Positions 4,242 through 61,042 of a stretch of 64,000 nucleotides of DNA are shown piece after piece. The stretch comes from Calothrix sp. PCC 7716 (GTDB taxonomy: Bacteria > Cyanobacteriota > Cyanobacteriia > Cyanobacteriales > Nostocaceae). Position 1 is the stretch's first letter; the number at the start of each line of letters is the position of its first letter. Made by a program: the position numbers and the translations under genes. Where the stretch lies: positions 10,978,580-11,042,579 of the forward strand of contig NZ_AP025018.1 of NCBI RefSeq assembly GCF_019977735.1, given 5' to 3'. The notes beneath the pieces are model-generated. The model made no database searches. It worked only from the letters and a program-made list of their open reading frames with translations, and was not told the origin of the DNA.

Positions 4242-4245
4242 GAGC

Positions 4246-4283
4246 GGATGTAACGGATAACAAATCAACCATCCGTTACATCC
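4246..4283. terminator. Bidirectional hairpin between Rieske oxygenase and egtD
   Basis: The arms GGATGTAACGGAT (4246-4258) and ATCCGTTACATCC (4271-4283) form a perfect 13-bp stem with a 12-base loop, between two convergent genes. It is built from a CGGATGTAACGGAT unit that also occurs at about 1320 and 55340, so it is both a dispersed repeat and a plausible terminator. Confidence 0.6.
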
Positions 4284-4301
4284 GTTGTATCCGTTGCAAA
4301 T

Positions 4302-5330
4302 TTACTGTAACTGGCAAAGCGATAAGCCAAACCAGTTGTTGGTATCAGTCCAAACCTTTTGAGTTATTAAACCATGTGTGCTTAATTGCTGCTTGATTGT
4401 ATCAATATCAAATTTACGTGAAATCTCAGTCATGATAGTTTCACCTGCTTCAATATCAACACTGAGATTCAGAGCTTGTAGTGTAACTTTCTGCGATTTT
4501 AACGAACGTAAATGCATTTCAATCTGATTTTCTACTTCATTATAAAATGCAAAGTGTTCAAACTCTGCTGTATCAAAGTTACCGTTATACAACCAATTAA
4601 TATGCTCTAACATATTCAAGTTAAAAGCTGCGGTTACACCTTGACTGTCGTTGTAAGCTGCTTCTAAAATATGTTTCGGTTTTTGTAAATCGATACCTAA
4701 TAAGAAGTACTCACCGGAATGCAAAGCTTGAGTAATTTGTGAGAAGAATATTTCTGACTCTTGCTGATTTAAATTACCTAAAGTACTGCCAATAAAAGCA
4801 ATCATTCGTGATGGTAATTTTTTTGCTGGGAGTTCGTGTAAAGCAAGTTCATATGTTCCAGCAAGCGCATTAATTTCCAACGTTGGATAATCAAGTAATA
4901 GTTGTTTAGCACTGTTTTCTAACATTCCAGCACTGACGTCTATGGGTAGATACCGTAACGGCAAACCAAGATTTTGATAAGCATCAAGTAAAATTCGGGT
5001 TTTCGTGGAACTACCACTACCCAACTCGACAAGTTCACATTCTTTTGTAATTTCTGCTATATCACTTGCACATGCTTGTAAAATAGCAGTCTCGGTTCGT
5101 GTAACGTAATACTCTGGTAATTCACAAATTTGCTCGAATAAATCAGAACCTCTATCATCATAGAAATAACGTGGAGGTAACGTTTTTGGTGTTTGCGTTA
5201 ACCCTTTTACCACATCACTTCCAGCAGTCGTTGTTAGACTTGCAGTTACAGAACGTAGATGTTGAATTTTCAGACGTTTTTCAATTTGTTGCTGCATAGC
5301 CTGACTACTGTTAGTATTAGATATTGTCAT
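4302..5330 (-). CDS. egtD: L-histidine N(alpha)-methyltransferase EgtD
   Basis: EgtD trimethylates histidine to hercynine with S-adenosylmethionine, the first step of ergothioneine synthesis. The 342 residues match the family in length. Visible signatures are LPPRYFYDDRGSDLFEQIC and LPEYYVTRTE near residues 50-80, the SAM-binding stretch VELGSGSSTKTRILLDA near 100, and the later segment IAFIGSTLGNLN. The ATG has a strong GGAGG ribosome-binding site four bases upstream. It is the last of three same-strand genes in the order egtC-egtB-egtD, with 133 bp between egtB and egtD. No egtA-like or egtE-like gene is visible in the window. Confidence 0.95.
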   Translation of the reverse strand: MTISNTNSSQAMQQQIEKRLKIQHLRSVTASLTTTAGSDVVKGLTQTPKTLPPRYFYDDRGSDLFEQICELPEYYVTRTETAILQACASDIAEITKECELVELGSGSSTKTRILLDAYQNLGLPLRYLPIDVSAGMLENSAKQLLLDYPTLEINALAGTYELALHELPAKKLPSRMIAFIGSTLGNLNQQESEIFFSQITQALHSGEYFLLGIDLQKPKHILEAAYNDSQGVTAAFNLNMLEHINWLYNGNFDTAEFEHFAFYNEVENQIEMHLRSLKSQKVTLQALNLSVDIEAGETIMTEISRKFDIDTIKQQLSTHGLITQKVWTDTNNWFGLSLCQLQ

Positions 5331-5463: not shown

Positions 5464-6699
5464 TTAATCGCTTGCACAGCGAAACCCTGCGAAAATCTGT
5501 CGAACATAAGGATAGTACCAGTTACGGAAACTCGTGCGCATTGAAGCGGGTCGCGTTGCCCAACTAGAACCTTTGAGGACTTTATGTTTGTTATCAAAGT
5601 AAACCTGTGAGTAACCTATATATGGATAATATTCAAACTCTTTATAACCATCAAACCAAGAGTTCGTCCATTCCCACACATTACCTAAAGCATCATACAT
5701 ACCATATGCGCTTTGTCCTTTGGGGTATGCATTAACTGGGGTGATTTGAAAAATATTAGTTGCAGCACAATTACAAAATTCTTGCGTTGGTTGTTCCTCT
5801 CCCCACGGGTAGGTGCGACTACAGTTTGCTTGTTCATCCCAGCGTGCAGCTTTTTCCCATTCTGCCTCTGTTGGTAATCGTTTACCTACGAATTTTGCAT
5901 AAGCTTCTGCTTCGTAATAACTCACACCCATGACAGGATGGTTTTCACAGGCGCCATCATCACACCAATATAAAGGTTGCTTTATTTGCTCAGTTTGTAA
6001 CCATTTCCAACCTGCATCCGACCAATACTGAGCTTTTTGATAACCTCCAGATTCCATAAATTCACGATATTTTCTCGAAGTTATTGGATACCTGTCTATA
6101 AAATAGGTGTCCAAATACACTTTATGCGCCGCACGCTCATTATCTAAAGCATTCGCGGAATTACTTCCCATTTCAAACTCACCTGCTCTTATTTTAATTT
6201 CGGGAGAAAGGGTAAGGGGTGAGGTGGAAACTACAGGAAGGGGGTTTTGATAATTAATTAATTTCAAAACAATGCAAGCAGTCTCACAGTGTTGACTTTC
6301 GTGTTGAAGCAAAAATCTCCAAAGTCTGTCCTGCGGTTCTATATCTACAACCTTTAAATAATCTAGTACTTTTTCACGGACAGCATCAAGATAATAACGA
6401 GTTTCTTCAATACTGGGTAGCTGTACTCGTTCCGATTTTGGCAAACCATCTGCTGCATACAGTTTACGATATTGGGGAAACATTGGCTTATAATTGGCGC
6501 CGCGTTCCAATAGCCAAAGTGACTCAGTGTAAGCAATATGTCCCAGATGCCAACCCACAGGACTAAAATCAGGATGAGCTAAACAGCGAAAAGTTTCCTC
6601 GTCCAAACTATCTAATAGCTCTAAGGTTTGCGCGCGACACTCCTGAAACCCACGTATGAAATAATCTTTTAAACTAGACTTGCTCAATTCTAATATCAC
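5464..6699 (-). CDS. egtB: Ergothioneine biosynthesis sulfoxide synthase EgtB
   Basis: EgtB is a non-haem iron enzyme that joins hercynine to a thiol donor with oxygen. The N-terminal DinB-like domain shows WHLGHIAYTESLW and the iron-ligand pattern HESQHCE. The C-terminal formylglycine-generating-enzyme-like domain has RLPTEAEWEKAAR, YGMYDALGNVWEWTNSWFDG and the ending AGFRCASD. The frame is open further upstream, but I choose the GTG at 6699. It has a GGGAGAGG ribosome-binding site five to six bases before it and gives about 411 residues starting at the conserved region. This start overlaps the end of egtC by 26 bp, suggesting translational coupling. Confidence 0.93.
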   Translation of the reverse strand: MILELSKSSLKDYFIRGFQECRAQTLELLDSLDEETFRCLAHPDFSPVGWHLGHIAYTESLWLLERGANYKPMFPQYRKLYAADGLPKSERVQLPSIEETRYYLDAVREKVLDYLKVVDIEPQDRLWRFLLQHESQHCETACIVLKLINYQNPLPVVSTSPLTLSPEIKIRAGEFEMGSNSANALDNERAAHKVYLDTYFIDRYPITSRKYREFMESGGYQKAQYWSDAGWKWLQTEQIKQPLYWCDDGACENHPVMGVSYYEAEAYAKFVGKRLPTEAEWEKAARWDEQANCSRTYPWGEEQPTQEFCNCAATNIFQITPVNAYPKGQSAYGMYDALGNVWEWTNSWFDGYKEFEYYPYIGYSQVYFDNKHKVLKGSSWATRPASMRTSFRNWYYPYVRQIFAGFRCASD

Positions 6700-7582
6700 A
6701 ATCCTCTCCCACACTGATAATGCTATTCTCTGGAATTGTCTGCCAATTACCAGTAAACAACGGTTCCGAAGCAATAATTACGGAATTAGGAAAATTCGGG
6801 TCATTTTTAATCCAATAAAGCGTAGGTGCTGGTTGTTTGACTGCGTAACGTGAAGCAACTAGTCGCTTACCATCGCTGATGACCAAATTGGCTAAAACAG
6901 AAGTGTCGTAAGAAAACGCCATTTCTTGAAGTTCAAGCAGTGTTGCGTGTAAAGCTTGTTCAATAGTTTTATCAGGATTGGTGGTGAGATGGTTCAATAT
7001 CATTGCAAAAATATGCTCAGAGTCTGTAGTACCACCTATCCAACTATAAATTTCATCAGTTAAGTTTTTACGCATTGGTCGGTATAAAGTTTTTTTGAAC
7101 TTCTCAACGCGACCGTTATGGATAAACGATAAATTCTTATACTTAAATGGCTGTGCATTGCTCATATCAAGCGCTTGACCTGATGTTGCACTACGTACAT
7201 AAGCCAAGATATTGTTCGATTCAACGTAGCGGCTGATACTTTCTAAGTTTGTATCATTCCAAATTGGTATAATACTTTTGTATGTAAAAGGCTCTAAGTC
7301 TTTATCAGTGCTGAGTACTGAGGAGCCACTGCCGTGGGCGGCTGCGCCGACTTGAGGCAAGTGGCGTTGCTGAGTGCTGAGTGTAGAAGAGTTCTCAGCA
7401 CTCAGCACTTTTAACTCAGCACTTTTGCTACCATACCAACCAATACCATAACCGTCGGCATTTACAGTACCTTGGAGCATTTCGCGCGGTTTATAGCTTT
7501 GGACTATCAGTGAATGTTCTGGTTTACACAGAATTAACTCTAGATTTACAGGGGTACCAATATAAGCAAGTAAGCGACACAT
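6674..7582 (-). CDS. egtC: Class II glutamine amidotransferase EgtC with an in-frame repeat insertion
   Basis: EgtC removes the gamma-glutamyl group from the sulfoxide intermediate. Its presence points to the route that uses gamma-glutamylcysteine as thiol donor. The nucleophile is Cys2 (MCRLLAYIG), as in Ntn amidotransferases, and NADGYGIGWY, YVRSATSG and SFIHNGRV are family segments. Between GYGIGWYG (residue 51) and EPFTYKS (97) lies a segment of about 45 residues encoded by heptamer repeats (positions 7295-7429). Homologues normally pass directly between these motifs. The frame is preserved and the rest is intact, so the enzyme may still work with a surface loop. Confidence 0.92.
   Translation of the reverse strand: MCRLLAYIGTPVNLELILCKPEHSLIVQSYKPREMLQGTVNADGYGIGWYGSKSAELKVLSAENSSTLSTQQRHLPQVGAAAHGSGSSVLSTDKDLEPFTYKSIIPIWNDTNLESISRYVESNNILAYVRSATSGQALDMSNAQPFKYKNLSFIHNGRVEKFKKTLYRPMRKNLTDEIYSWIGGTTDSEHIFAMILNHLTTNPDKTIEQALHATLLELQEMAFSYDTSVLANLVISDGKRLVASRYAVKQPAPTLYWIKNDPNFPNSVIIASEPLFTGNWQTIPENSIISVGEDCDIRIEQV
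7295..7429. repeat. Heptamer (CTCAGCA-type) repeat insertion inside egtC
   Basis: Tandem CTCAGCA/TGCTGAG heptamers flank a GCCACTGCCGTGGGCGG core, the arrangement typical of cyanobacterial short tandem repeats. The same heptamers form tracts at 31441, 32847 and 35691. Here the insertion length is a multiple of three (135 bp) and is translated. Confidence 0.8.
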
Positions 7583-48650: not shown

Positions 48651-49265
48651 TTAATTAGCAAGAGTATCTGTCATAAGTGTCGTTACTAGAATACCTAAAA
48701 TTTTATCTATTTCCTTAATAAAATAATCGCTTTTATCTATAGTAACTGTATTTCCAAGGAGTTTAAGAAATTTCCAATCAGTTCCAGTTGTAACTACACC
48801 ATAAACTTCCTCAATAGGGTTTCCCTGTTGCTGATTAAATATTTGTGCTGCAATCATTGTAGCAATACATTGCCCTAAACCCGATTTAATACTTTCATTT
48901 TTTGCCTCAACAATTGTTACAACAGGACTAGTGATATCATATTGCTCTTGAGAACGACTCAATATAAAATCACATCGTCCTTCTAAACCTTTTTCTGCAT
49001 CAACGTTAAACTCCGTACCAGAAAAAAGACTAATCTGATATTTAAAATAACGCCTTACTTCTATCATGACTGGCATAATAACAAGCTCGGAGCGCGCTTT
49101 TTCCGTATTAATAGCGGTTACTAAAGGCAAATGCTCTGTCAGGATAATGTTAAGATAGTCAGTAGGTGAAACTACCTCTACATTCTGAAATAAATCTTGG
49201 TTCTCAATAACGGTGAGATTAAAGTCCTTTTTGGCTTTATTAAAACTAAAAGCACTGTATGGCAT
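48651..49265 (-). CDS. PD-(D/E)XK-like nuclease family protein, cyanobacterial
   Basis: These 204 residues include GLEGRCDFILSRSQEQ and VVTIVEAKNESIKSGLGQCI at about 92-135, which place an Asp and an E-x-K on adjacent strands, as in PD-(D/E)XK enzymes. QCIATMIAAQIFNQQQG and YGVVTTGTDWKFLKL follow. The family is multicopy in cyanobacteria and resembles predicted restriction-type or transposon-associated nucleases; its function is unknown. The start region overlaps, on the opposite strand, an open frame that leads into the first LRR copy. Confidence 0.65.
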   Translation of the reverse strand: MPYSAFSFNKAKKDFNLTVIENQDLFQNVEVVSPTDYLNIILTEHLPLVTAINTEKARSELVIMPVMIEVRRYFKYQISLFSGTEFNVDAEKGLEGRCDFILSRSQEQYDITSPVVTIVEAKNESIKSGLGQCIATMIAAQIFNQQQGNPIEEVYGVVTTGTDWKFLKLLGNTVTIDKSDYFIKEIDKILGILVTTLMTDTLAN

Positions 49266-49292
49266 ATCGGTTGTTTACAATCTTCTGACTTT

Positions 49293-49769
49293 TTGTGCAT
49301 CTTAATTATAGAGCTTAATTATAGAATAGTTCAGCAGATTTCAAAACTTGAGCTATCAAATTTAGAATATCTTGAAATATGGAGAATACCGCTTAAACAC
49401 TATAATCAGCAATCTATTACTTCTATCATTACTGATAAGTCATTTCCAACACTGAAATATTTGGGTTTACCAAGCAGTGATTGCACTAACGAGCTAGTTA
49501 AAATAATAATCAGTTCTGGAATACCAGAACAATTGAAAGTACTAAATTTATCTATGGGTACTTTAACTGACGAAGGTGCAAATCTTTTATTAAATAGCCC
49601 TTTAATAAATAAGCTACATACTCTAAATGTTTCTGGAAATGTTTTATCTACAGAAATGACTCAACGCTTATCTAAGTTAAATTGCCGAGTCATAGCGGAA
49701 CCACAGTTTGAAATAAACTATAGGGATAGTGCTTTGGAACCTGAGTACTATGACACTCTGTACGAATAA
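49293..49769 (+). CDS. STM4015-like leucine-rich-repeat protein, copy A (C-terminal part)
   Basis: The product of about 158 residues contains LEYLEIWRIPLKHYNQQ, FPTLKYLGLPSSDCTNELVK, LKVLNLSMGTLTDEGANLLL and LHTLNVSGNVLSTEMTQRL, which are leucine-rich repeats of the STM4015 type. It ends YYDTLYE. Full STM4015 proteins are about twice as long; here the first half is missing and no good start exists (TTG at 49293 is the nearest). It is the first of three tandem copies ahead of STM4014-, STM4013- and STM4012-like genes. It may be a shortened but used gene, or a remnant. Confidence 0.65.
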   Translation: MCILIIELNYRIVQQISKLELSNLEYLEIWRIPLKHYNQQSITSIITDKSFPTLKYLGLPSSDCTNELVKIIISSGIPEQLKVLNLSMGTLTDEGANLLLNSPLINKLHTLNVSGNVLSTEMTQRLSKLNCRVIAEPQFEINYRDSALEPEYYDTLYE

Positions 49770-49808
49770 CCAAGGTTATTTATTAAATATTATGTGGAGG
49801 TTGTAACT

Positions 49809-50243
49809 ATGACCTACTTACCCAAACTTCTTCTGACTTTCGTGACGCTTTGACTTGGCGGTTGCCATCATAAATCGACTGAAGACATCAGTACTAAATA
49901 TTTACTTCCTATTTTTGCTGGTCAGGTCTTTCCTAATCTGAGTTACTTGGGTTTGCGTAGTAGTGACTACTCAGACAATATTGCCCAGTGTTTAGCAGAG
50001 TTGCCAACAGTTATTAGCCGTCTTGCAGTACTTGATTTATCTATGGGAACTTTAACAGATAATGGTGCAGAAGCTTTGTTGAATTTTGCTCCCATCAATC
50101 AACTTCATACGCTGGATGTTTCTATGAACAATCTATCCCTAAATATGATTGAAAAATTATCTCAGCTTAATTGTAAAGTAATTGCACCGCAGCAGAATGA
50201 AGAAGCAGAGTTTGGCTCTCGTTGCTGCGCCCTTTATGAATAA
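49809..50243 (+). pseudogene. STM4015-like leucine-rich-repeat protein, copy B, with in-frame TGA
   Basis: A strong GGAGG ribosome-binding site precedes the ATG (49809). The frame reads MTYLPKLLLTFVTL, then TGA (49851-49853), then, still in frame, GGCHHKSTEDISTKYLLPIF and the repeats FPNLSYLGLRSSDYSDNIAQ, LAVLDLSMGTLTDNGAEALL and LHTLDVSMNNLSLNMIEKL, ending RCCALYE. The single stop within an otherwise open 145-codon frame marks decay or an accidental join. The C-terminal LYE is shared with copies A and C. Confidence 0.7.
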
Positions 50244-50351
50244 ATTCTAAAATTTTTTGTTCTTTTTATAATCTTCCAGTTTATGAGCATCTCAATTATA
50301 AAGTGGTGTAGTGGTAAGTAACAATGGCAGACAATCAACCTAGAGATATGG

Positions 50352-50774
50352 ATGGGTGGTAGGAAATATAAACTTAATTTAAATAAAGTTATTAAAAATA
50401 TAAGACCAGTTCTTTTTAGTGAATCATTTCCGAATCTCAGCTATTTAGGAATACGTAGCAGTGAATATGCTAATGAAATAGCTGCTGCTATCGCTCAATC
50501 TTCTTTTATAGCAGAATCTCCTATTGTTGATAATCTAAGAGTACTAGATTTATCAATGGGAAATTTAACAGATGAGGGTTTAGAGGTTTTACTTGATTGT
50601 CCAGCAATCCAAAATTTACATACTCTTAATGTTTCCAACAATTGTGTATCTGAAGAATTTTTTGAGCAAATGGAACAGCTAGCACCACCTGATTGCTTGT
50701 TGATTAAAGATTTTCAAGAGCCAATTGTTGATAGAAATGTTGGTATATCACGTTACTATGCATTATATGAGTAA
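50352..50774 (+). CDS. STM4015-like leucine-rich-repeat protein, copy C
   Basis: The 140 residues contain SFPNLSYLGIRSSEYANEIA, LRVLDLSMGNLTDEGLEVLL and LHTLNVSNNCVSEEFFEQ, and end ISRYYALYE. It lacks the N-terminal half of full STM4015 proteins. The ATG is preceded by a second ATG in another frame; no clear ribosome-binding site is seen. It lies 21 bp upstream of the STM4014-like gene, so the two are probably cotranscribed. LRR solenoids bind proteins or peptides; this could be the partner or substrate of the downstream enzymes. Confidence 0.7.
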   Translation: MGGRKYKLNLNKVIKNIRPVLFSESFPNLSYLGIRSSEYANEIAAAIAQSSFIAESPIVDNLRVLDLSMGNLTDEGLEVLLDCPAIQNLHTLNVSNNCVSEEFFEQMEQLAPPDCLLIKDFQEPIVDRNVGISRYYALYE

Positions 50775-50795
50775 GGCAGGAAGGATTTATAAATA

Positions 50796-51953
50796 ATGCT
50801 AAACTTTATCGCTATTGCAAATCCTGAAAACAGGCGCCTTGGTTTCCTAAAACAAGCACTCTCCCATTTCAATTTACCACCTGCTACCGTTATTCCTTAC
50901 GCGGACTTAATCGCAGGCAAACAAACCCTAGAACAATTCAAGGTGCCTAATACTATTATCCGCTTTGACTCTCCTGAGAGAGACTTTGAAATTGATAAAG
51001 CAATTATTGCCGCAGGTTTTGCCGTACCTGATGACGGACAGCACCAGCGTATAAGTCCTGCCGAAGTTGCTTTCTTAGAGTTTGATAAAGGACGTATTTG
51101 TTATCCTCGTCAATGGTATCTAGGTTGGCGCCATCTTTTACAACAATGGTTGCAGCAACTTCTAGTCCCCTGTGTAGACGGGGTGGGGTTCATGAACCAC
51201 CCCGAAGACATAGCCGTAATGTTCGACAAACCAGCATGTCACGAAAAATTCCGGCGCCATAATATTCCCGTTCCCCGTTCGCTTGGTAAAATTCACAGCT
51301 ACGACCATTTACGCGAACAAATGCAACAACAGGAGATAGACCGAGTATTCGTCAAACTATCTCACGGTTCTGCTGCTTCTGGAGTTGTTGCTTATCAGGC
51401 AAATTCAAAGTTTGAGTCAGCGATAACTACTGTTGAACGAGTGCGAGAAAACGGGGAAACTTTACTATATAACTCTCGTAAAATTCGTAATTATACCCGT
51501 AGAGAAGAAATTGCCGATATCATCAATATTTTAACTGCGGAAGGTGTGCAGGTCGAAGAATGGCTACCCAAAGCGCGCTTACAGGGATGTGGTTTTGATG
51601 TGCGTGTAGTAGTTATCAACGGTGAAGCGCAGCATATAGTTGTCAGGTTGGGCAAAAGTCCAATGACGAATTTGCACCTCGGTAACGAAAGAGGTAATAG
51701 TGAGGAATTACTAGAAAAAGTCGGCGCCGAAAACTGGGAAGCGATGAAATACACTTGTGAACAAGCAGCAAAGTTATTTCCTAGGAGTTTATACTGTGGC
51801 GTTGATTTATTGATTTTACCTGATTGGAAACAACACGCAATTTTAGAAATTAACGCTTTCGGTGATTTGCTACCAGGTATATTATGGAATGGTATGGATA
51901 CTTATACAAGTGAGGTTAAGGCAATATTGCAAAGGAATATAAAAGAGGGTTGA
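50796..51953 (+). CDS. STM4014 family protein (ATP-grasp-like)
   Basis: These 385 residues match the STM4014 family by segments and context. The N-terminal part (FIAIANPENRRLGFLKQALS; PYADLIAGKQTLEQFKVP) is followed by an ATP-grasp-like core, with MFDKPACHEKFRRHNIPVPR, RVFVKLSHGSAASGV, VEEWLPKARLQGCGFDVRVV and HAILEINAFGDLLPG. The last carries the metal-binding E-x-N. ATP-grasp enzymes form amide or ester bonds through acyl phosphates, so this one may modify a peptide or protein. AGGAAGG provides the ribosome-binding site. It follows copy C closely, and STM4013- and STM4012-like genes follow after about 1 kb. Confidence 0.85.
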   Translation: MLNFIAIANPENRRLGFLKQALSHFNLPPATVIPYADLIAGKQTLEQFKVPNTIIRFDSPERDFEIDKAIIAAGFAVPDDGQHQRISPAEVAFLEFDKGRICYPRQWYLGWRHLLQQWLQQLLVPCVDGVGFMNHPEDIAVMFDKPACHEKFRRHNIPVPRSLGKIHSYDHLREQMQQQEIDRVFVKLSHGSAASGVVAYQANSKFESAITTVERVRENGETLLYNSRKIRNYTRREEIADIINILTAEGVQVEEWLPKARLQGCGFDVRVVVINGEAQHIVVRLGKSPMTNLHLGNERGNSEELLEKVGAENWEAMKYTCEQAAKLFPRSLYCGVDLLILPDWKQHAILEINAFGDLLPGILWNGMDTYTSEVKAILQRNIKEG

Positions 51954-51979
51954 TTAGCGCACGTTATCTTTTCTTGGAT

Positions 51980-52344
51980 TCATTCACTTTGTTGTTGCAT
52001 TAAAAACTTTGCTCTTTTAGCTGTTGCGTTTAATTCAGCCTCCACCAAGCTATCTAATTCTGCTTGTAGTTCTTTTGGAAACAACTTTTCTTCATCGCGC
52101 GCTTTACGCCATAATTCCATTAATTCAGATAAGCGTTTTTGCTGTTCGGCGCCAAAAAATTGGTCAGGACGGAAACTTTGCAGTACAAGTACCCCGTTAA
52201 ACTCGGCTTCGCCCAATTGAGTTGTTAAAGCAGCTACATAGCTTGACCAGCAGTTTTACCTATTGACTGCTTGTCACCAGCTACCGCACGATAACACCTC
52301 TGCCCTGAAGCATCCTGTATGGATTGTATAGCTACTGTAGTCAT
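51980..52344 (-). pseudogene. Conserved cyanobacterial small protein, frameshifted
   Basis: From the ATG at 52344 the frame reads MTTVAIQSIQDASGQRCYRA, VAGDKQSIGKTAGQAM and then TAG near 52240. In the neighbouring frame the sequence continues AALTTQLGEAEFNGVLVLQS, FRPDQFFGAEQQKRLSELM and VEAELNATAKRAKFLMQQ. The two parts join naturally at GQA..ALTTQLGEAEFNG, which I recall from a family of about 120-residue cyanobacterial proteins of unknown function. A one-base loss explains the break. Confidence 0.72.
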
Positions 52345-52410
52345 GTTTTTGCCTCAAGCTATTTCAATTATATATTTTACGCAAAACCATAACCAAGCTT
52401 TTGGCTACTT

Positions 52411-52704
52411 TTATACTGGCTTAAGAGCAATCTCTACTTTCTGATTGAGAGCGCAAGCAATTTTTTGAAGCATGGACAATGAGTGTCCCTCGTAATCAGC
52501 ATCCTCAAGTCGTGCAATGACTGGTTGCTTTGTGCCTATTAAATCGGCAAGTTCCTTTTGTGTTAAACCTGCTTTTGTCCTAGCTTCATAAATAAGCTGC
52601 GCTACTGTTGCATTAATTGATGCGACAGCTATCATCTCTTGAATCTCAGAATCGCCATCATTCATCTTTTCGATTATCTTGATAGCATCGCTATTCTTGG
52701 TCAT
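52411..52704 (-). CDS. XRE-type antitoxin (HigA-like)
   Basis: The 97 residues form a helix-turn-helix regulator: IYEARTKAGLTQKELADLIG, TKQPVIARLEDADYEGHSLS and MLQKIACALNQKVEIAL. In small loci of this kind it represses its own operon and binds a RelE/HigB toxin encoded upstream. The toxin gene here (52709-52955) is broken, so this antitoxin is an orphan. Its ATG lies five bases after the old toxin stop. Confidence 0.88.
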   Translation of the reverse strand: MTKNSDAIKIIEKMNDGDSEIQEMIAVASINATVAQLIYEARTKAGLTQKELADLIGTKQPVIARLEDADYEGHSLSMLQKIACALNQKVEIALKPV

Positions 52705-52708
52705 TGTT

Positions 52709-52955
52709 TTACACCTCTATATAAGTATGAATATCAGGATTACTTTCAAACAAAGTTTTGCGTTGTATCGCGCGTTCAATCTCAATATCTGGGACAGGTC
52801 GTCTGAGTTCGTACAAGTAATGCAGCAAGTAGATTGATACGACCTATACAGTTAGCATAACCTTTCCGGTTTTCTTTCAACAGATGTATCAACCATTCAA
52901 GAACAGGAACTTCTCCATCTTCTTCCTTATAGAAAACAACACGTATTTCAGGCAC
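52709..52955 (-). pseudogene. RelE/HigB-family toxin with internal deletion and frameshift
   Basis: A GTG start gives PEIRVVFYKEEDGEVPVLEW, LIHLLKENRKGYANCIGRIN and LLAALLVRTQTT, then a stop. In another frame the sequence reads YELRRPVPDIEIERAIQRKT and LFESNPDIHTYIEV up to the antitoxin. Family members have about 30 more residues in between (the GIYELRV...YRILYFF core). That catalytic core is deleted, so the toxin is dead. Confidence 0.82.
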
Positions 52956-52968
52956 TGCACCATCCTAT

Positions 52969-52986
52969 TATAACAATATTGTTATA
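52969..52986. promoter_or_regulatory. 18-bp perfect palindrome, putative operator
   Basis: TATAACAATATTGTTATA is a perfect palindrome 13 bp upstream of the toxin start and in the spacer before the divergent sulfatase-like gene. Position and symmetry suit a binding site for the XRE antitoxin dimer. If so, the orphan antitoxin may now regulate the STM4013-like gene. Confidence 0.6.
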
Positions 52987-53039
52987 TTAAGTGGTAATCC
53001 CGTGTGCTTTCGATAGCTATAAATTTCTTAATAATTCAT

Positions 53040-53873
53040 ATGTTTAACATGAATCAAATTGTCGGAACTCACGACATATTATTTATAACTCTGGATACTT
53101 TGCGCTATGACGTAGCCAAGGATTTATTTACCAAAGGGCGCCTTCCTAATTTAGCCGCAGTGCTTCCAGAAACAGGTTGGGAGCAACGCCATTCTCCCGG
53201 TAATTTTACTTATGCTGCTCATCATGCTTTTTTCGCGGGTTTTCTCCCTACTCCCATAACTCCAGGTATTCACCCACGTCCTTTTGCTTTGGGGTTTGAG
53301 GGTAGCACTACTACTACAGAAAATACTTGTGTTTTGGAAGGCGCCAATATTGTCGAAGGGTTAGCAGTTAGGGGCTACCATACAGTTTGTATCGGTGGTG
53401 TGGGATTTTTTAATAAACTCAATCCTTTGGGTAACGTCTTGCCGTCGATGTTCACAGAGAGTCACTGGAGTCGAGAGTTAGGAGTAACAAACCCTGACTC
53501 AACAGAGAAGCAGGTAGAACTCGTGCGGCGAATTTTAGAACAAACGCCAAAAAATCAGCGCCTGTTCTTATTTATAAACATTTCTGCCCTACATCAGCCA
53601 AATTATTTTTATCTGCCTAGTGCTAAAACAGATACTATTCAATCACACGGCGCCGCTTTGGAATATGTAGATAGTCAGCTTGGTCAACTTTGGGATGCTT
53701 TACGACAAAGGAGTTCAACATTTTGTATTCTTTGCTCCGACCACGGGACAACTTATGGTGATGACGGATACACTGGACATAGGTTAAGCCATCCTACAGT
53801 GTGGACTGTTCCCTATATAGAGTTTATTTTAGAAGAATTGATCCCCCCAACCCCCCTTAATAAGGGGGGCTAA
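53040..53873 (+). CDS. STM4013/SEN3800 family sulfatase-like hydrolase
   Basis: About 278 residues of the alkaline-phosphatase/sulfatase superfamily. The metal-site aspartate is in DILFITLDTLRYDVA, the nucleophile region in RHSPGNFTYAAHHAFFAG, and the second metal site in CILCSDHGTTYGDDGYTGHR. SHPTVWTVPYIEFIL is a family ending. After it, the last residues (IPPTPLNKGG) are read from a CCCCCC repeat and are foreign. The ATG at 53040 or 53049 is used; the frame is open to a GTG upstream. It sits between STM4014- and STM4012-like genes; the substrate is unknown. Confidence 0.85.
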   Translation: MFNMNQIVGTHDILFITLDTLRYDVAKDLFTKGRLPNLAAVLPETGWEQRHSPGNFTYAAHHAFFAGFLPTPITPGIHPRPFALGFEGSTTTTENTCVLEGANIVEGLAVRGYHTVCIGGVGFFNKLNPLGNVLPSMFTESHWSRELGVTNPDSTEKQVELVRRILEQTPKNQRLFLFINISALHQPNYFYLPSAKTDTIQSHGAALEYVDSQLGQLWDALRQRSSTFCILCSDHGTTYGDDGYTGHRLSHPTVWTVPYIEFILEELIPPTPLNKGG

Positions 53874-53952
53874 GAATGGGGTTATTTCTCTTCTTTTTCA
53901 AGAGAAAACTTAACTCTTGCTCCCCCCTTATTAAGGGGGGCTGGGGGGGATT
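53841..53952. mobile_element. 112-bp MITE-like element with CCCCCC inverted-repeat ends
   Basis: The terminal arms of about 30 bp begin ATCCCCCCAACCCCCCTTAA and are inverted at the other end (TTAAGGGGGGCTGGGGGGAT). Each arm is itself palindromic around TTAATAA. The core (TTATTTCTCTTCTTTTTC) has no gene. One end also occurs at 1465. It lies at the 3' end of the STM4013-like gene and supplies its stop. Confidence 0.82.
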
Positions 53953-53996
53953 ATCATATAATCAAAAACCATATAAATTAACATATTTAAAGCCAA

Positions 53997-55322
53997 ATGA
54001 TTACAACTCAAATCCCAAGCTTAAAATCTAAAATCTCCCAATCACCTTACCAAGCTTACGTTTACTCCTACCCCCACAAAACCGCATACCGTCCCCTAAC
54101 TCCACCCGTAAACCTTGCACAACTATGGTCAGACCAAGATAAAAGCGCATTATTCCTCTACATACATATTCCCTTTTGCGAAATGCGCTGTGGGTTTTGC
54201 AACTTATTTACCACGGTCACCCACAATGAAGACTTTGTAACTCAATACGTGAAAACGCTACAGCGACAAGCGCAACGAGTAAAATCAGCTTTAGGAAAAT
54301 CATCATTCGCGCGCTTTGCCATTGGTGGAGGAACACCCACACAGCTACCCATCCAGCACCTTGAAACAATCTTTAACATTGCTGAAACGATGGGCGCCAA
54401 CCTTAACATTCCTATTTCTGTAGAAGTTTCCCCAGAGACAGCAACCCAAGATAAATTAAAGCTTTTACGAGAACGAGGCGCCGATAGAATAAGCATAGGT
54501 GTTCAAAGTTTCATTGAGTCAGAAGTTTTAGCAACCCAACGGCGCCAAACCACTCCTCAAGTAGAAGCAGCTTTAGGAAGAATTAAAGAAGCAGGTTTTC
54601 CGACATTAAACATTGATTTAATCTACGGTCTTCCCGGGCAAACTGTAGAGACTTGGTTGCAATCTATACGTGCTGCATTGCGCTTTCAACCAGAAGAAAT
54701 TTATCTATATCCTTTGTACGTGCGACCACTTACAGGTTTAGGACGTACTGATAAAGAATGGGATGATATTCGTCTCGCTTGCTACCGTGCAGGGCGCCAG
54801 TTGTTGCTATCTAAAGGATATTCTCAGGTTTCAATGCGAATGTTTCAACGATGGGAAAATAATCCTGCATCACCTGTTTACTGTTGCCAAGCTGATGGTA
54901 TGGTTGGTTTAGGATGCGGCGCCCGTTCTTACACAGACACTTTGCACTATTCCAATGACTACGCGGTTGGTGTTAAAGAAATTAAGGGTATTTTACAAGC
55001 GTATATACAGAACAGTGATGAAGCTTTTGATTTTGCAAACTATGGGTTTAAGTTAGATGGCAATGAACAACGGCGCCGTTATATTTTGCTGTCTCTACTT
55101 TCTGATGAAGGGTTGAATTTTGCTAGCTATCAGCAAAGGTTTAATAGCAGTGTTTATATAGATTTTCCTGAACTTCGTGAACTAAAACAGCTAAATTTGG
55201 GAATGGAAGATGGGGAAATATTGCGGTTGACTGAAGCTGGTGTTGAACTTTCTGATGTAATTGGCGCCTGGTTATTTTCGGAGAGGGTGCTGGAGTTGAT
55301 GTATGGTTATGAGTTGAAATAA
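53997..55322 (+). CDS. STM4012 family radical SAM protein
   Basis: These 441 residues resemble HemN/HemW in layout. The cluster motif C-x3-C-x2-C is in YIHIPFCEMRCGFCNLF. RFAIGGGTPTQLPIQHLETI, ISVEVSPETATQ, RISIGVQSFIESEVLA and NIDLIYGLPGQTVETW follow. A C-terminal winged-helix-like part contains NEQRRRYILLSLLSDEGLNF. It is not hemW, which is present separately at 40.0-41.2 kb. The order STM4015-4014-4013-4012 matches the known cluster order; the second radical SAM member (STM4011) is not seen. The reaction is unknown. Confidence 0.88.
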   Translation: MITTQIPSLKSKISQSPYQAYVYSYPHKTAYRPLTPPVNLAQLWSDQDKSALFLYIHIPFCEMRCGFCNLFTTVTHNEDFVTQYVKTLQRQAQRVKSALGKSSFARFAIGGGTPTQLPIQHLETIFNIAETMGANLNIPISVEVSPETATQDKLKLLRERGADRISIGVQSFIESEVLATQRRQTTPQVEAALGRIKEAGFPTLNIDLIYGLPGQTVETWLQSIRAALRFQPEEIYLYPLYVRPLTGLGRTDKEWDDIRLACYRAGRQLLLSKGYSQVSMRMFQRWENNPASPVYCCQADGMVGLGCGARSYTDTLHYSNDYAVGVKEIKGILQAYIQNSDEAFDFANYGFKLDGNEQRRRYILLSLLSDEGLNFASYQQRFNSSVYIDFPELRELKQLNLGMEDGEILRLTEAGVELSDVIGAWLFSERVLELMYGYELK

Positions 55323-55634: not shown

Positions 55635-56153
55635 ATGACTAATAATCAAAACTACCCTAGAGAATTTGATGCTGTTCGTGGAGGAGAAACACCCCCACCT
55701 GTACAAGGCGCCGTGTTAGGTGGCATTGAAGGAGTTAAACAGCGTTTAGCTAGTTCTGTTTTTGAAACGCGCGTTGCTGCGCTAAGTGAAGCACTAAATT
55801 ATGGTGAGGCAGGTTTGGATTTAGTAATCAAGGCTTTAGAAGATAAATCTAGAAAAGTACAGAAAACTGCGACAAGTTTATTAAGGATAAGAGAAGAAAA
55901 TCAGGCTAAAATTGCTCTACATAACTTTAAATTCTGGACTGATTTTGAAAAATTAAACGGACTTGCAAACGGATATGCAAAGAAATTTGTAAACAGAAAA
56001 GTTATCGAATTTGATGGTAAAAATAGCGTTAACGACACCGTTAATGCTGCATATGCATTGAGAACAGTCTCCAAATGGAGTTCTACATATACAATGCGAG
56101 AAGCCCAGATGAATAATACACAAAAAAAGCTTAAAAAGGTATCCGCTCAATAA
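55635..56153 (+). CDS. HEAT-like REFDAVRGG family protein, intact third paralogue
   Basis: These 172 residues begin YPREFDAVRGGETPPPVQGA and GGIEGVKQRLASSVFETRVA, then a HEAT-like helix pair (YGEAGLDLVIKALEDKSRKV; QKTATSLLRIREENQAKIAL). The C-terminal 80 residues (FKFWTDFEKLNGLANGYAKK; VNDTVNAAYALRTVSKWSST) are unrelated to those of the broken paralogues at 43.0 and 44.0 kb. So the family combines a fixed N-terminal module with different tails. The ATG is clear; no function is known. Confidence 0.65.
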   Translation: MTNNQNYPREFDAVRGGETPPPVQGAVLGGIEGVKQRLASSVFETRVAALSEALNYGEAGLDLVIKALEDKSRKVQKTATSLLRIREENQAKIALHNFKFWTDFEKLNGLANGYAKKFVNRKVIEFDGKNSVNDTVNAAYALRTVSKWSSTYTMREAQMNNTQKKLKKVSAQ

Positions 56154-56394: not shown

Positions 56395-58101
56395 ATGACG
56401 CAAAATCCAGAAAGTAAAAAGTTAGTACCTGACTTGCTGCAAAGCATTGACCCAAGAGGAATTGCAGACGCTTCATTGCGGCAAAGTATAGAAGTACTTC
56501 TGAACTTAATAGAGGAACAAAATTTAAAGATAAAAAGTTTAGAAGAAGAAATTCAAAAACTTCGGGATGAAAACAATCGTCTTAAAGGAGAGAAGGGTAA
56601 GCCAGACATCAAAGCCAATAAAACGAGCGGATTTAAGAAAGACCATTCGTCAGAGAAAGAACGTAAAACTCATAAAGGGCATACTAAGAGCAGTAAAAAC
56701 GCCAGTATTAAGATAGATCGAGAATGGATTTTGGAGTATCCAGAATCTGAGCTACCAGCGGATGCGGAGTTTAAGGGTTACGAAAAAGTAATTATACAAG
56801 ATATCTCACTTGAAACCGATAATGTACTATTCCTGAAACCAAAATTCTACTCAGCTTCTGAAGGTAAAACATACTTGGCGCCATTACCAACAGGTTACGA
56901 CGGAGAGTTTGGTCCAGGAATTAAAGCTTTAGTCATAAGCCTGTACTATGGAGGCAATATGACTCAAGGTAAATTATTAGAATTTTTAGAAGATATTGGT
57001 ATTTCAATGTCAGCAGGCTATTTGTCAAATCTGCTAATTAAAAATGATTCTGGATTTGAATCTGAATATAACGAAGTATATATATCTGGGCTAGAAAGTA
57101 CTACTTGGCAGCACTTAGACCAAACGTCCGCGCGTGTTAAGGGCATAAATCAGACTACGAATGTTGTTTGTAACCCATTGTATACAGTTTATTCAACGAC
57201 TCTAAAAAAAGATAGATTAAGTGTACTAGGGGTATTACAGAATAAACAAAAGCTTGAGTTTGTTCTCAATGAGCTTACCTATGAGCTATTGAATACTTTG
57301 AATGTACCCGTAAAGTGGAGTAATCAACTTAAATTATTGCCTCAAGAAACAGTTTTTACAGAGTCAGAATTTAATTCTCTGCTTGATACGTATTTGAAGA
57401 AACTAGGTTCTCAACATCGTACTCGCGTATTAGAAGCGGCAGCGATTGCTTTTTCTCATCAGCAAACCAACATTCCAATAGTACAAACTCTCGTATGTGA
57501 TGATGCTCCTCAATTTAAACTATTGACGAATAATTTAGCTCTATGTTGGGTACATGAAGGGCGCCATTATAAAAAACTGACTCCGTTTGTTGCCTGCCAT
57601 CAAAAAATTTTAGACGACTTTCTTTCTGAGTTTTGGGATTACTACCGGGAACTGCTTGCTTATAGCGATTCTCCTTCTGTAAAGAGCAAACTTTGGCTTC
57701 AGTCAAGATTTTGGGAAATCTTTGGTACTGAAAGTGGTTATAAGCAGTTAGACGAGCGAAAAAAGTTAACAGCAGCAAAAGTTTCCGAGTTACTTTTAGT
57801 TCTAGAGTATCCTGAACTGCCGTTACATAATAACCCTGCTGAACTAGCTGCCAGAACAATGGTGCAGCGACGCAACATTAGTTATGCGACTCAGACGAGT
57901 GAGGGTACTAGAGCTTGGGATATATTTATGTCTCTTGTTGCCACTACTCGAAAATTAGGAATAAGCTTTTTCAAGTACATACAAGACCGTATTTCTAAGA
58001 ATTATGATATCCCATCTTTGGGAGATGTTATTAGAGATAAATGTGTTCAAAACCATCAGCCCTTGTTTTGGCAAGATGAATTATTTTGTATGTCAGGGTA
58101 A
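56395..58101 (+). CDS. IS66-type transposase
   Basis: The 568 residues have an N-terminal coiled coil (LIEEQNLKIKSLEEEIQKLR) and a Lys-rich linker (SGFKKDHSSEKERKTHKGH) characteristic of IS66 TnpC. The DDE_Tnp_IS66 core has acidic residues in TTWQHLDQTSARV, TLVCDDAPQF and LPLHNNPAELAARTMVQRR. No TnpA/TnpB accessory genes are adjacent, and I could not find matching inverted repeats at both ends. It is probably an orphan or derivative copy. The frame is intact. Confidence 0.83.
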   Translation: MTQNPESKKLVPDLLQSIDPRGIADASLRQSIEVLLNLIEEQNLKIKSLEEEIQKLRDENNRLKGEKGKPDIKANKTSGFKKDHSSEKERKTHKGHTKSSKNASIKIDREWILEYPESELPADAEFKGYEKVIIQDISLETDNVLFLKPKFYSASEGKTYLAPLPTGYDGEFGPGIKALVISLYYGGNMTQGKLLEFLEDIGISMSAGYLSNLLIKNDSGFESEYNEVYISGLESTTWQHLDQTSARVKGINQTTNVVCNPLYTVYSTTLKKDRLSVLGVLQNKQKLEFVLNELTYELLNTLNVPVKWSNQLKLLPQETVFTESEFNSLLDTYLKKLGSQHRTRVLEAAAIAFSHQQTNIPIVQTLVCDDAPQFKLLTNNLALCWVHEGRHYKKLTPFVACHQKILDDFLSEFWDYYRELLAYSDSPSVKSKLWLQSRFWEIFGTESGYKQLDERKKLTAAKVSELLLVLEYPELPLHNNPAELAARTMVQRRNISYATQTSEGTRAWDIFMSLVATTRKLGISFFKYIQDRISKNYDIPSLGDVIRDKCVQNHQPLFWQDELFCMSG

Positions 58102-58569: not shown

Positions 58570-59196
58570 TTGTCATCAGAACCAAAACATTTGGTTTCTG
58601 TTCCTTCTTTCTACTTAGGGAAATATGAAATTACTCAAGCACAATGGCGAACTGTTGCAAGATATGGAAAAGTTAAACACGACTTGAACCCAGATTTACC
58701 TCATTATGGTAGAGATTATGTTAGGGCAAGTGAACCAGCGGAAGGAGTCTCTTGGGTTGAAGCTGTTGAATTTTGTGAAAGGTTATCTAGAAAAACAAAA
58801 CGTTTATATAGATTACCCAGCGAGGCTGAATGGGAATATACATGTCGTGCTGGTACTACTACATACTACCATTTTGGAGAGGAGCTAACTCCTGAAAATG
58901 CTGCTTTAGTTGCACAATATAATCAAGAACTTCAAGATGTAGGTAGTTTTCCCCCTAATGATTTTGGCATTTATGATATGCATGGTAATGTTCTGGAATG
59001 GTGTGCTGATAAATGGCATACTAATTATGAACAGGCGCCTGCCGATGGTAGTATGTGGGAAACACCGTTAGATTTTAGTGAGTTCAAACACTACCGAGTT
59101 ATTCGAGGTTGGAAATCAGCACGTCGTAGTGCAGGTGAAGCAAATGCTCGTGTACAGTCACCAATTGGATTTAGAGTTGCTTGTTTTATACCTTAA
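58570..59196 (+). pseudogene. Formylglycine-generating-enzyme-like domain protein, N-terminally truncated
   Basis: The 208 residues form most of an FGE-sulfatase (SUMF1-like) domain: VPSFYLGKYEITQAQWRTVA, VSWVEAVEFCERLSRKT, YRLPSEAEWEYTCRAGTTTY, DFGIYDMHGNVLEWCADKWH and VQSPIGFRVACF. The usual beginning (the GGTFxMGS segment) is missing, and no ATG is found; TTG at 58570 is the nearest. In cyanobacteria such domains commonly end caspase- or NACHT-containing proteins, so this is likely the tail of a lost larger gene. The conserved core is otherwise unbroken. Confidence 0.72.
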
Positions 59197-59656: not shown

Positions 59657-61042
59657 TTAATTCTTGCTTGAAGCTTTAGCGCTCTTGAGCCAAAACTCTA
59701 CAAAAGAGAGCAGCGCAGGACTAATAGGACTTATCAACCAATTAAACAAAAAGTCAGCAATAGCAGTTTTGCGCGGACGGTTCAGGAAAAAGGTTGACAT
59801 GACAATTCCCACACAAGCTAAAGTTGCTGTGACAAAGAAAAACGGTGCAAAACTACCAGAAATTCCTCGTATGGCGCCAATAGTAAAAATCCCACCTAAA
59901 CCACCAAACCCAAAGGCTGTAAACATTAAACCGTAGTTACTAGGGTAATTACTCAAACCAAAAAAGCTCAATGTTGCAGCAGGCGCCACTGCTAACCATG
60001 CTCCTAAACAAAACCAAAATACACAGTACGCTATCAAGAAATTCGCTATTTGTCCTTGTGATGTATTCCACATTACTATGGATGCCGTCAGAATTAAAAC
60101 GTTGATAACGATTATTGTTAACTTAGGTTTGAGTCGGTCGTTTAACCAACCAAATAAAGGACGACCAATACCGTTAAATACAGCAAATAATGGAATTGCA
60201 AATGCTAATTGCTCTTGTTGTAACCCAACTATTTCTTTTCCTACTTGTGCAGTTGTGGCAATTGCTGTTAATCCAACAAATGTACCAATAATATAGCAAA
60301 TCCACAGCCCATAAAAAGTCTGTGTTTGTGCCATTGGTATGTCTAAACTATCGCTAGTTTCTGTATTTGATATAGCTGGGCGCCAATTTGCAGGTTGCCA
60401 ACGTAGCGGCGGCATTTTTAATAGACTTGCAATTGATAAAATGATTACCGTGAAGGCAATACCTAATATTACGAAAGTACCGCGTACACCAAAAGCAGGA
60501 AGACCAATTGCACTGTTACCATTCATTAACGTAATCGCTAACGGCGCCGTTACCAAGGGTGACAATCCAAAACCAACAACCGTCATCCCCACCGCTAAAC
60601 CCTTACGGTCAGGAAACCAACGCGCGGCAACTGCAAGTGGTACACCATAGGCAATACCAACACCAATTCCTGCTATTAAACCATAACTAACTATCAAAAA
60701 TGGTAAATTCGGGGCAATACTTGAGAGTAAATAACCGATTCCAACAATTATTCCACCAATAGTGGTAAGTATACGAGGACTAAATCTATATATGTATAAC
60801 CCAGAAATTGGCATGACAAGGGTAAAAATCACACCTAGTACCATAAATGGTAGTAAAATTGTTCCCGGTTTAGCTTGTAGTGCTGCCTCAAATGGACTAC
60901 TAAAGATACTCCAAGAATAAACTGTTCCCAAGCATAGTAGTACAATTAACCCTAAAGGAATAAACAACCATCTTCCAGCTTCGGGTCGCAGTCCAAAAAG
61001 TTTCTCTTCGCGCGGAAAATCAAAGAATTTTGTACTATCCAT
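59657..61042 (-). CDS. OFA-type MFS transporter (oxalate/formate antiporter family-like)
   Basis: About 461 residues with twelve predicted membrane helices. The major-facilitator pattern is seen in GTVYSWSIFSSPFEAALQ, RFSPRILTTIGGIIVGIGYL, ISYGL-like YGLIAGIGVGIAYGVPLAVA, ARWFPDRKGLAVGMTVVGFG and FNGIGRPLFGWLNDRLKPKL. These match the OFA subgroup, which includes oxalate:formate exchangers and other monocarboxylate carriers. The ATG at 61042 is preferred over a TTG five codons upstream. The substrate is unknown. It lies about 230 bp downstream of the peroxidase gene on the same strand. Confidence 0.85.
   Translation of the reverse strand: MDSTKFFDFPREEKLFGLRPEAGRWLFIPLGLIVLLCLGTVYSWSIFSSPFEAALQAKPGTILLPFMVLGVIFTLVMPISGLYIYRFSPRILTTIGGIIVGIGYLLSSIAPNLPFLIVSYGLIAGIGVGIAYGVPLAVAARWFPDRKGLAVGMTVVGFGLSPLVTAPLAITLMNGNSAIGLPAFGVRGTFVILGIAFTVIILSIASLLKMPPLRWQPANWRPAISNTETSDSLDIPMAQTQTFYGLWICYIIGTFVGLTAIATTAQVGKEIVGLQQEQLAFAIPLFAVFNGIGRPLFGWLNDRLKPKLTIIVINVLILTASIVMWNTSQGQIANFLIAYCVFWFCLGAWLAVAPAATLSFFGLSNYPSNYGLMFTAFGFGGLGGIFTIGAIRGISGSFAPFFFVTATLACVGIVMSTFFLNRPRKTAIADFLFNWLISPISPALLSFVEFWLKSAKASSKN

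Follow-up and report, generated by a model that had tools for sequence, protein, structure and literature searches.

What a leucine-rich repeat (LRR) protein does beside an ATP-grasp enzyme, a sulfatase-like enzyme and a radical S-adenosylmethionine (SAM) enzyme is the question raised by a gene cluster in a 64,000-nt stretch of the Calothrix sp. PCC 7716 genome (12.37 Mb, 10 contigs; contig NZ_AP025018.1), called the window here, whose positions serve for all local coordinates. Between 49.2 and 56.2 kb, on the plus strand, three LRR copies (A, B, and C) are followed by genes of the families STM4014, STM4013 and STM4012 and then by a fourth LRR copy, D. The original prediction, drawn from the letters of this stretch, took copies A to C for three whole tandem LRR proteins of the STM4015 type with a common C-terminal LYE, and proposed that they or their tails are recognition partners or substrates of enzymes resembling those of ribosomally synthesized and post-translationally modified peptides (RiPPs). 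We report that STM4015 proteins share a Glu-ended tail and that their genes are paired with STM4014, and we judge the chances about even that the tail is loaded or activated at its C-terminal Glu by STM4014, an enzyme of the LysX/ArgX-RimK-graspetide-ligase group, and then worked on by STM4013, STM4012 and STM4011.

The tail was sampled in 80 loci recruited through STM4013, not through STM4015 or the tail itself (the best 80 of 573 relatives), and was counted in 100 distinct STM4015 proteins matching a 307-position profile at least to position 270; the seed proteins of this profile are mostly tail-bearing, and the scan nevertheless retained tail-less copies. Nearly all of these proteins (97/100) end in Glu, with Arg at −7 in 91, Tyr or Phe at −6 in 94 and the whole pattern R[YF]x4E in 85, while 7 of the 276 cassette enzymes in the same loci end in Glu. 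Aligned across genomes, the C-termini of STM4015 thus do not vary freely. When cyanobacterial and plasmid loci were added and the fragments of the window left out, giving 164 proteins in 83 groups at 60% identity, the terminal Glu was present in 76 groups, Arg at −7 in 72 and Tyr or Phe at −6 in 73. Information per position reaches 3.7 bits at −1, where the final Glu is the most constant residue of the tail, 3.1 at −6 and 3.4 at −7, and drops to 0.9 at −8, where conservation ends and a variable linker begins; the C-termini of STM4014 (29 groups) reach at most 1.2 bits at the positions printed. The seven groups lacking Glu consist of a tail-less paralogue group, a Gly-ended form, an extended tail, an Asp-ended form and three shortened or odd ends. 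By our assignment of phyla from record titles, the tail is found across about eleven phyla. Altogether, this wider tail is conserved far beyond chance, and the tails of these LRR proteins deserve attention in annotation besides the repeats.

The shorter LYE fared otherwise. As a shared signal it turned out to be a subgroup form, since L and Y vary from one family member to the next, leaving the final E as the one near-constant letter of the three, and a fragment in another genome that matches copy A ends DALHE; LYE was therefore excluded as the signal, being the less informative part of the tail. A degenerate nine-base LYE pattern was uninformative in the genome as well (1467 matches versus 1986 in the reversed control).

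We examined how the tail-bearing gene is inherited by a profile scan of the same 80 loci, which detected STM4013 in 79, STM4012 in 68, STM4011 in 66, STM4014 in 65 and STM4015 in 63, with all five genes together in 57; the 23 incomplete loci include several that are short or cut by a contig end and others with STM4013 alone or STM4013-4012-4011 in the stretch covered. Where STM4013, STM4014 and STM4015 are all present (62 loci), STM4015 and STM4014 lie on the same strand less than 300 bases apart, with frames measured stop to stop, in 60. In 7 of the 62 loci STM4014 and STM4013 are encoded on different strands, and in all 7 STM4014 is still paired with STM4015. Only two loci hold STM4014 without STM4015 (L090 and L126), and in both the locus end falls within STM4014. 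The two genes are also inherited together: among 120 relatives, STM4015 occurs in 13 genomes and STM4014 in 12 of these and in none of the remaining genomes, and in 386 cyanobacterial genomes drawn, both occur in exactly the same 5. The only genome with STM4015 and no STM4014 (G001) has the tail RHCSVTE, with His for Tyr; being one case, this tail change in the orphan genome is suggestive only. Because of the pairing, the joint movement between strands and the co-inheritance, STM4015 and STM4014 behave like one unit, and STM4013, STM4012 and STM4011 look like another. Among myxobacterial loci with no STM4015 in the stretch, the two genes upstream in L097, the only one annotated, are weakly SLOG-like and HAD-like, and no evident substitute substrate was seen there.

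The partner in this pair was modeled with AlphaFold from 60 sequences, with a predicted local distance difference test score (pLDDT) of 94.0 and a predicted template modeling score (pTM) of 0.92. The best Foldseek match of the model in the PDB was ArgX with LysW (3vpb, E 7.7e-13, template modeling [TM] score 0.77 by target), and RimK (4iwx, E 3.5e-11; 5zct, 4.9e-11) and the graspetide ligase MdnC were also among the best matches. By sequence profile, the best PDB matches were LysX (1uc8, E 6e-4) and RimK (5zct, E 2e-3), in whose alignment the segments D-x-R and T/S-N are common to STM4014 and LysX/RimK. Residues K187, D268, R270, R284, T291, N292, E351 and N353, which we take to be catalytic, are kept in 60 of 60 sequences of the STM4014 alignment. 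On the NCBIfam RimK-family model, STM4014 scored 31.8 bits against a cut-off of 143.4; together with the predicted structure, this indicates an ATP-grasp fold of the RimK/LysX branch that is a relative, not a member, of the RimK model. ArgX is described as joining glutamate to the gamma-carboxyl of the terminal Glu of LysW (PMC4490483), and RimK as adding glutamates to the C-terminus of RpsF (PMC10092738). That these two relatives act on the C-terminus of a partner, and that the partner of STM4014 so regularly ends in Glu, is the core of the argument for the tail as a substrate.

Several observations weigh against this argument. Tail-less STM4015 paralogues, ending ERQQALN or similar, persist in six genomes of the genus, and Gly-ended copies (RYYSSYG) exist. 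Four copies (one from Methylobacterium, one from Prescottella and two from Rhodococcus) have Ser in place of Tyr −6 and a Tyr at −8, which makes Tyr less likely than Glu as the reacting residue and argues against a fixed Tyr chemistry. The C-terminal region of STM4012 is also conserved (20 groups; up to 3.2 bits at −14, 1.5 at −1), and STM4013, with only 10 groups, offers too few as a control. In the DNA of the same Calothrix genome, the pattern RY-x-[SA]-V-x-E-stop has 3 matches, all of them STM4015 ends, and its reversed control likewise has 3. As for the enzyme, the TM score to 3vpb is 0.58 when normalized by STM4014, and by sequence LysX and RimK are matched weakly, at E about 1e-3. The match to PsnB, a graspetide ligase, with its precursor (7dro, E 4.8e-12) is nearly level with that to ArgX, and DcsG and D-Ala-D-Ala ligases match at 1e-10 to 1e-9, so that a crosslink between side chains or some other ligase reaction would also be compatible; the modeled fold does not tell a C-terminal ligase from a side-chain macrocyclase.

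From the tail conservation, the gene pairing, the co-inheritance and the fold relationships, we infer a scheme with several provisional elements: the roles of the tail as substrate and of the Glu as site, the sequence of reactions, what is attached, and what results. STM4015 would be a protein scaffold whose working end, the C-terminal heptapeptide R-[Y/F]-x-[A/S]-[V/L]-x-Glu, is carried outward by a variable, mostly acidic linker, and its LRR body would select a partner. STM4014 would activate a carboxylate of the tail, most likely that of the C-terminal Glu, and attach an amine; STM4012 (HemN-like), STM4011 (SPASM-like) and STM4013 might then alter the tail or the attached group, or release it. 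If the tail is loaded, this would be a new carrier-protein chemistry, possibly leading to a new cofactor or signal. In its most specific form, which we hold tentatively and regard as rather doubtful, STM4015 is an LRR carrier and as such a new type of platform for assembly on a protein, the ATP-grasp enzyme loads a building block on the C-terminal Glu, and the two radical SAM enzymes and the phosphatase-superfamily enzyme yield a cofactor, signal or metabolite. If true, the logic of LysW-like carrier-protein biosynthesis would extend across about eleven phyla, often with several scaffolds per genome.

The radical SAM enzymes introduce a different possibility. In the PDB, STM4012 matched HemN by profile (1olt, E 3e-58) and, at E 4e-37, the methyltransferase NocN, which presumably has a RiPP role. 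C15, C19, C22 and later Cys residues of STM4011 are invariant in 29 sequences, and its only PDB profile match, a weak one (E 0.003), was to the C-terminal part of the SPASM maturase SkfB. These matches, those of STM4014 to PsnB and MdnC, and the multiple STM4015 matches in 25 of the 80 loci would suit a RiPP or peptide-derived cofactor, with the heptapeptide tail as the core on an unusually large LRR leader, crosslinked by STM4014 in the manner of graspetides, given carbon-carbon or similar bonds by the radical SAM enzymes and cut off as a small product. STM4014 resembles the C-terminal ligases (ArgX/LysX, RimK) as much as it does graspetide ligases. We consider this possibility unlikely: in the 8 cassette regions read, no protease is annotated, and the transporters near some of them do not recur across lineages. 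The only acidic residue of the canonical tail, moreover, is its last, the tail offers no invariant Ser, Thr or Lys from which a lactone or lactam could form, and its Tyr is replaceable. The neighbor of the ATP-grasp gene is the LRR gene in 60 of 62 loci and not a short precursor of the graspetide type, small unannotated open reading frames (ORFs) not having been searched systematically. The idea that the tails are recognition sites or substrates of peptide-modifying enzymes is in keeping with their conservation; strict membership among RiPPs is less well founded, no protease being annotated in the regions read and no transporter recurring across lineages.

The body of STM4015 raises a further alternative, in which the tail merely docks or sorts, binding the enzymes or some other partner, while the LRR body or a third molecule is modified or recognized. 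Docking peptides are typically short motifs of the kind seen here, placed at the C-terminus after a variable linker. The N-terminal domain, in addition, varies by lineage, with WGR in three myxobacterial proteins and weak HEAT matches, below the Pfam cut-off, in two cyanobacterial ones, and these differences suggest an adaptor. A mere tag is nevertheless less economical, as the best relatives of the cassette ATP-grasp enzyme act on partner proteins or peptides, and a strictly terminal Glu as the most constant residue speaks against it too; we regard docking alone as improbable. A solved relative of STM4015, PDB 2ra8 (Q64V53, Bacteroides fragilis), is matched at E 1e-81 as far as its tail, YSYPMITE. 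Near cyanobacterial cassettes (L054, L057), WD40-looking proteins share a BLAST stretch of 70-130 residues with the LRR proteins, which by sequence is apparently the N-terminal domain of the latter.

The remaining enzyme, STM4013, was modeled with a pLDDT of 90.9. Its best Foldseek match was EptC (4tn0, E 2.4e-9), followed by LtaP, YejM and sulfatases, so that its fold relatives are phosphoethanolamine transferases, lipoteichoic-acid synthase and sulfatases. T69 is invariant in 50 of 50 sequences, as are D31, D246, H247 and H259; we assume that T69 occupies the nucleophile position, where sulfatases have Cys or Ser.

We compared the cassette with known systems. Like STM4015 and STM4014, LysW and LysX/ArgX, the amino-group carrier protein system of lysine/arginine biosynthesis, combine a Glu-ended protein with an ATP-grasp ligase, and these ligases are the best matches of STM4014 in the PDB by fold (ArgX-LysW) and by sequence (LysX). 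The partners of LysW are enzymes of the lysine pathway, whereas STM4015 and STM4014 are accompanied by two radical SAM enzymes and one enzyme of the phosphatase superfamily. The carriers differ as well, STM4015 being an LRR protein of about 280-420 residues and LysW small (PMC4490483). RimK and its target RpsF (ribosomal protein S6) share with the proposed system the addition to the C-terminus of a protein by an ATP-grasp enzyme, as proposed for STM4014, and the D-x-R and (T/S)-N-L-H segments; unlike RimK, STM4014 is longer, has STM4015 as its likely partner by pairing, and is accompanied by extra tailoring enzymes. Graspetides of the microviridin/plesiocin type (MdnC, PsnB) have the ATP-grasp fold in common with STM4014, but we saw no short precursor whose acidic core is repeated, and the gene paired with STM4014 encodes an LRR protein. 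Near the ATP-grasp genes of graspetides, SPASM radical SAM enzymes are often present (PMC8939145).

A defense role was also considered: among PADLOC models, 4 of 6 cassette proteins had no match at 0.01, and STM4012 and STM4011 gave partial radical-SAM matches only (PDC-M51A, 8.7e-11; pVip, 0.0017 and 0.0048). With no good match among the 6 proteins, an anti-phage defense system was set aside.

All five families, STM4011 to STM4015, were already named in NCBIfam, with names that carry no function, and the genes of the window and its relatives match them; what is new here is the shared Glu-ended tail and the pairing of STM4014 with STM4015. PDB 2ra8 is listed solely as an uncharacterized protein, and its names occur in none of the open-access papers searched. 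PMC9062424 reportedly treats HemN-like enzymes in RiPPs, and PMC11964587 is reported to name PRK08208 once. No paper on the cassette was found in the open-access literature searched, which includes few subscription journals and no bioRxiv preprints, in agreement with the earlier statement that this function is unknown. In PMC3844500 and PMC2784778, STM4013 and STM4015 appear in table rows; the relevant passages of PMC10434189 and PMC2879425 concern other genes, so that these two were discarded as cassette literature, and PMC4431377 contains none of five terms looked for. The cassette is widespread and reaches a small share of E. coli, where it is chromosomal in 154 of 5426 complete genomes. 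The single E. coli cassette read is flanked by ompL and by a HAD gene next to typA, and its STM4015 carries a frameshift annotation. The tail and the inseparable ATP-grasp partner make this open annotation cheaply testable.

How does the Calothrix locus itself compare with the family? The features of the window are as follows.

49197..49769, plus strand: copy A, C-terminal remnant of an STM4015 LRR protein (NF038076 positions 132-259 of 290, 91 bits)
49854..50243, plus strand: copy B, C-terminal STM4015 remnant (NF038076 163-267 of 290; alignment to the L040 orthologue)
50322..50774, plus strand: copy C, STM4015 remnant with an internal deletion (NF038076 150-259 of 290; comparison with L037 and a 409-residue frame)
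50796..51953, plus strand: STM4014 family ATP-grasp ligase (NF038074, 435 bits; full-length frame open)
53004..53873, plus strand: STM4013 family alkaline-phosphatase-superfamily enzyme (NF038075, 430 bits; frame open)
53997..55322, plus strand: STM4012 family HemN-like radical SAM enzyme (PRK08208, 624 bits; full-length frame open)
55635..56153, plus strand: copy D, N-terminal remnant of a further STM4015 paralogue with its downstream part cut off (protein alignment)
56395..58101, plus strand: IS66-type transposase (PF03050), where sister genomes have LRR copies and STM4011
58570-59196, just downstream of the IS66-type transposase: protein with an FGE-sulfatase domain (PF03781, 1e-37), where sister genomes have STM4011

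The order LRR - STM4014 - STM4013 - STM4012 and the identities given to the three enzymes (ATP-grasp, sulfatase-like, radical SAM) were right, all three lying far above their NCBIfam cut-offs (435 versus 175, 430 versus 250 and 624 versus 380 bits, respectively). The LRR copies are a different matter. On NF038076 (cut-off 275), the scores of copies A, B and C are 91-92 bits, coming from the C-terminal half of the model only; the copies retain about the last 130-160 residues of a protein of about 400 and are family fragments rather than full STM4015 members. Copy A, whose start codon is uncertain and whose homology starts near ORF residue 31, aligns to residues 139-285 of 295 or 253-401 of 410 of relatives at 48-50% identity. 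Copy B corresponds to residues 271-400 of the intact 400-residue L040 orthologue (91.5% identical) and has no ATG ahead of its conserved part, the first start-like codon being a TTG at 49947. Copy C corresponds to residues 272-409 of a 409-residue frame (90.6% identical); its ATG at 50324 matches the start of the intact gene and runs into a stop after 12 codons, and its 140-residue frame starts at 50352. The two DNA matches of copy C to L037 share 5 bases at 50343-50347 of the window, while in L037 they are separated by a jump from 3886 to 4658, so that copy C has lost about 770 bases of the intact gene. The partial profile matches, this deletion and the orthologue alignments rule out three whole tandem proteins. 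Copy D holds the N-terminal domain and the beginning of the LRR part, its first 145-164 residues aligning to residues 2-146 of a 419-residue relative (64%) and to others. Intact LRR genes stand beside the same enzymes in related genomes, one such region being that of Calothrix sp. NIES-4105 (L037, L076).

The predicted ends DTLYE, CALYE and YALYE of copies A, B and C are indeed there. In copy A (EYYDTLYE), Tyr replaces the conserved Arg at −7, and in copy B (SRCCALYE), Cys replaces Tyr at −6, the intact orthologue having SRYCALYE, so that SRYYALYE of copy C is the sole canonical tail among the three. The genome has 8 STM4015 matches, comprising A, B, C and 5 near-complete distant copies; of the latter, 4 end RYCSVAE or RYCSIAE and 1 has no tail. 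Three other STM4015 copies in this genome score 295-303 bits (cut-off 275). STM4011 was not found in this genome at E ≤ 1e-5, the sole such case among 12 cyanobacterial genomes searched; it was found in the 11 others and in 3 of 3 plasmid records (14 of 15 overall).

These findings bear on the window and not on the function of the family, and they make it fairly probable that copies A to D are decay products of recombining tandem LRR genes and that the local cassette is dying, with no present function. Three N-terminal truncations, one C-terminal truncation, the loss of STM4011 and the IS66-type transposase fit this account, as do the altered conserved positions in 2 of the 3 local tails. Decay is common among these LRR genes, with in-frame stops in 6 of 66 STM4015 matches of this and related genomes, copy B among them. 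With STM4011 gone and all local scaffolds damaged, the local pathway is probably incomplete in this genome. The pairwise ratios of nonsynonymous to synonymous substitution rates (Ka/Ks) fit decay less well, at 0.09-0.10 for STM4014 and 0.15 for STM4012, whose frames, like that of STM4013, are open, and at 0.16 for copy B and 0.10 for copy C, while two intact LRR pairs lie above both copies (0.20 and 0.25); 3 of the 11 rows of this set (STM4013, and two of copy C with L049) were dropped as out of frame. The low ratios of B and C imply that the truncations are recent or that the fragments still serve, which adds to the difficulties for the tail as substrate listed above. Four distant scaffolds, furthermore, keep canonical tails despite the local damage, and decay accounts for the window, not for the STM4015 family.

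As the invariant Thr of STM4013 stands where sulfatases have Cys or Ser, the protein of the formylglycine-generating enzyme (FGE) type at 58570-59196 was set aside as an activator of STM4013. The far flank of sister cassettes resumes, by DNA match, at 59668-59673 of the window. Between STM4014 and STM4013, an HTH_3 (Pfam) protein and an adjoining short ORF on the minus strand (52411-52955) look like an inserted pair of the toxin-antitoxin type, of which the HTH protein alone was profile-tested. The STM4013 frame is lengthened at its C-terminal end by a C/G-rich, palindromic-looking repeat pair (53838-53952), within which 53841-53877 is a 37-base perfect match to another position in the locus L044 of another genome.

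Other loci yielded further observations. The tail-less paralogue adjoins a tail-bearing STM4015 in L036, L038, L043, L045, L048 and L060, stretches without the enzymes. On a Streptomyces albidoflavus plasmid (L068, 4759-6922), a diverged STM4013-family gene occurs with a small ORF, a NUDIX hydrolase and a lasso-peptide B2 protein; the profile scan found no other STM gene in this 10.8-kb stretch. A bifunctional sulfate adenylyltransferase/adenylylsulfate (APS) kinase gene lies directly 5' of STM4013 in L147 (566-2284), and a similar-looking gene is present in L105 (1371-3035). A DUF6745 protein and a partner of about 100 residues adjoin the cassette in 31 of the 80 loci (L076-L155), with all five STM genes each time, and occur also at L064, L065, L067, L070, L071 and L073; in Methylobacterium, the DUF6745 protein has an LRR-like N-terminal part by weak NCBIfam cross-matches. 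In a loose scan for the end motif among stop-to-stop frames of at least 80 residues in L036-L155 and the window, seven frames outside STM4015 were found, six of them from the family of small DUF6745 partners, ending in Asp, and one in L084. The latter frame (Myxococcus vastator, 6335-6766), directly after STM4011, ends RILAVQE, close to the STM4015 tail, and could by its sequence be either a chance match or a non-LRR bearer of the tail.

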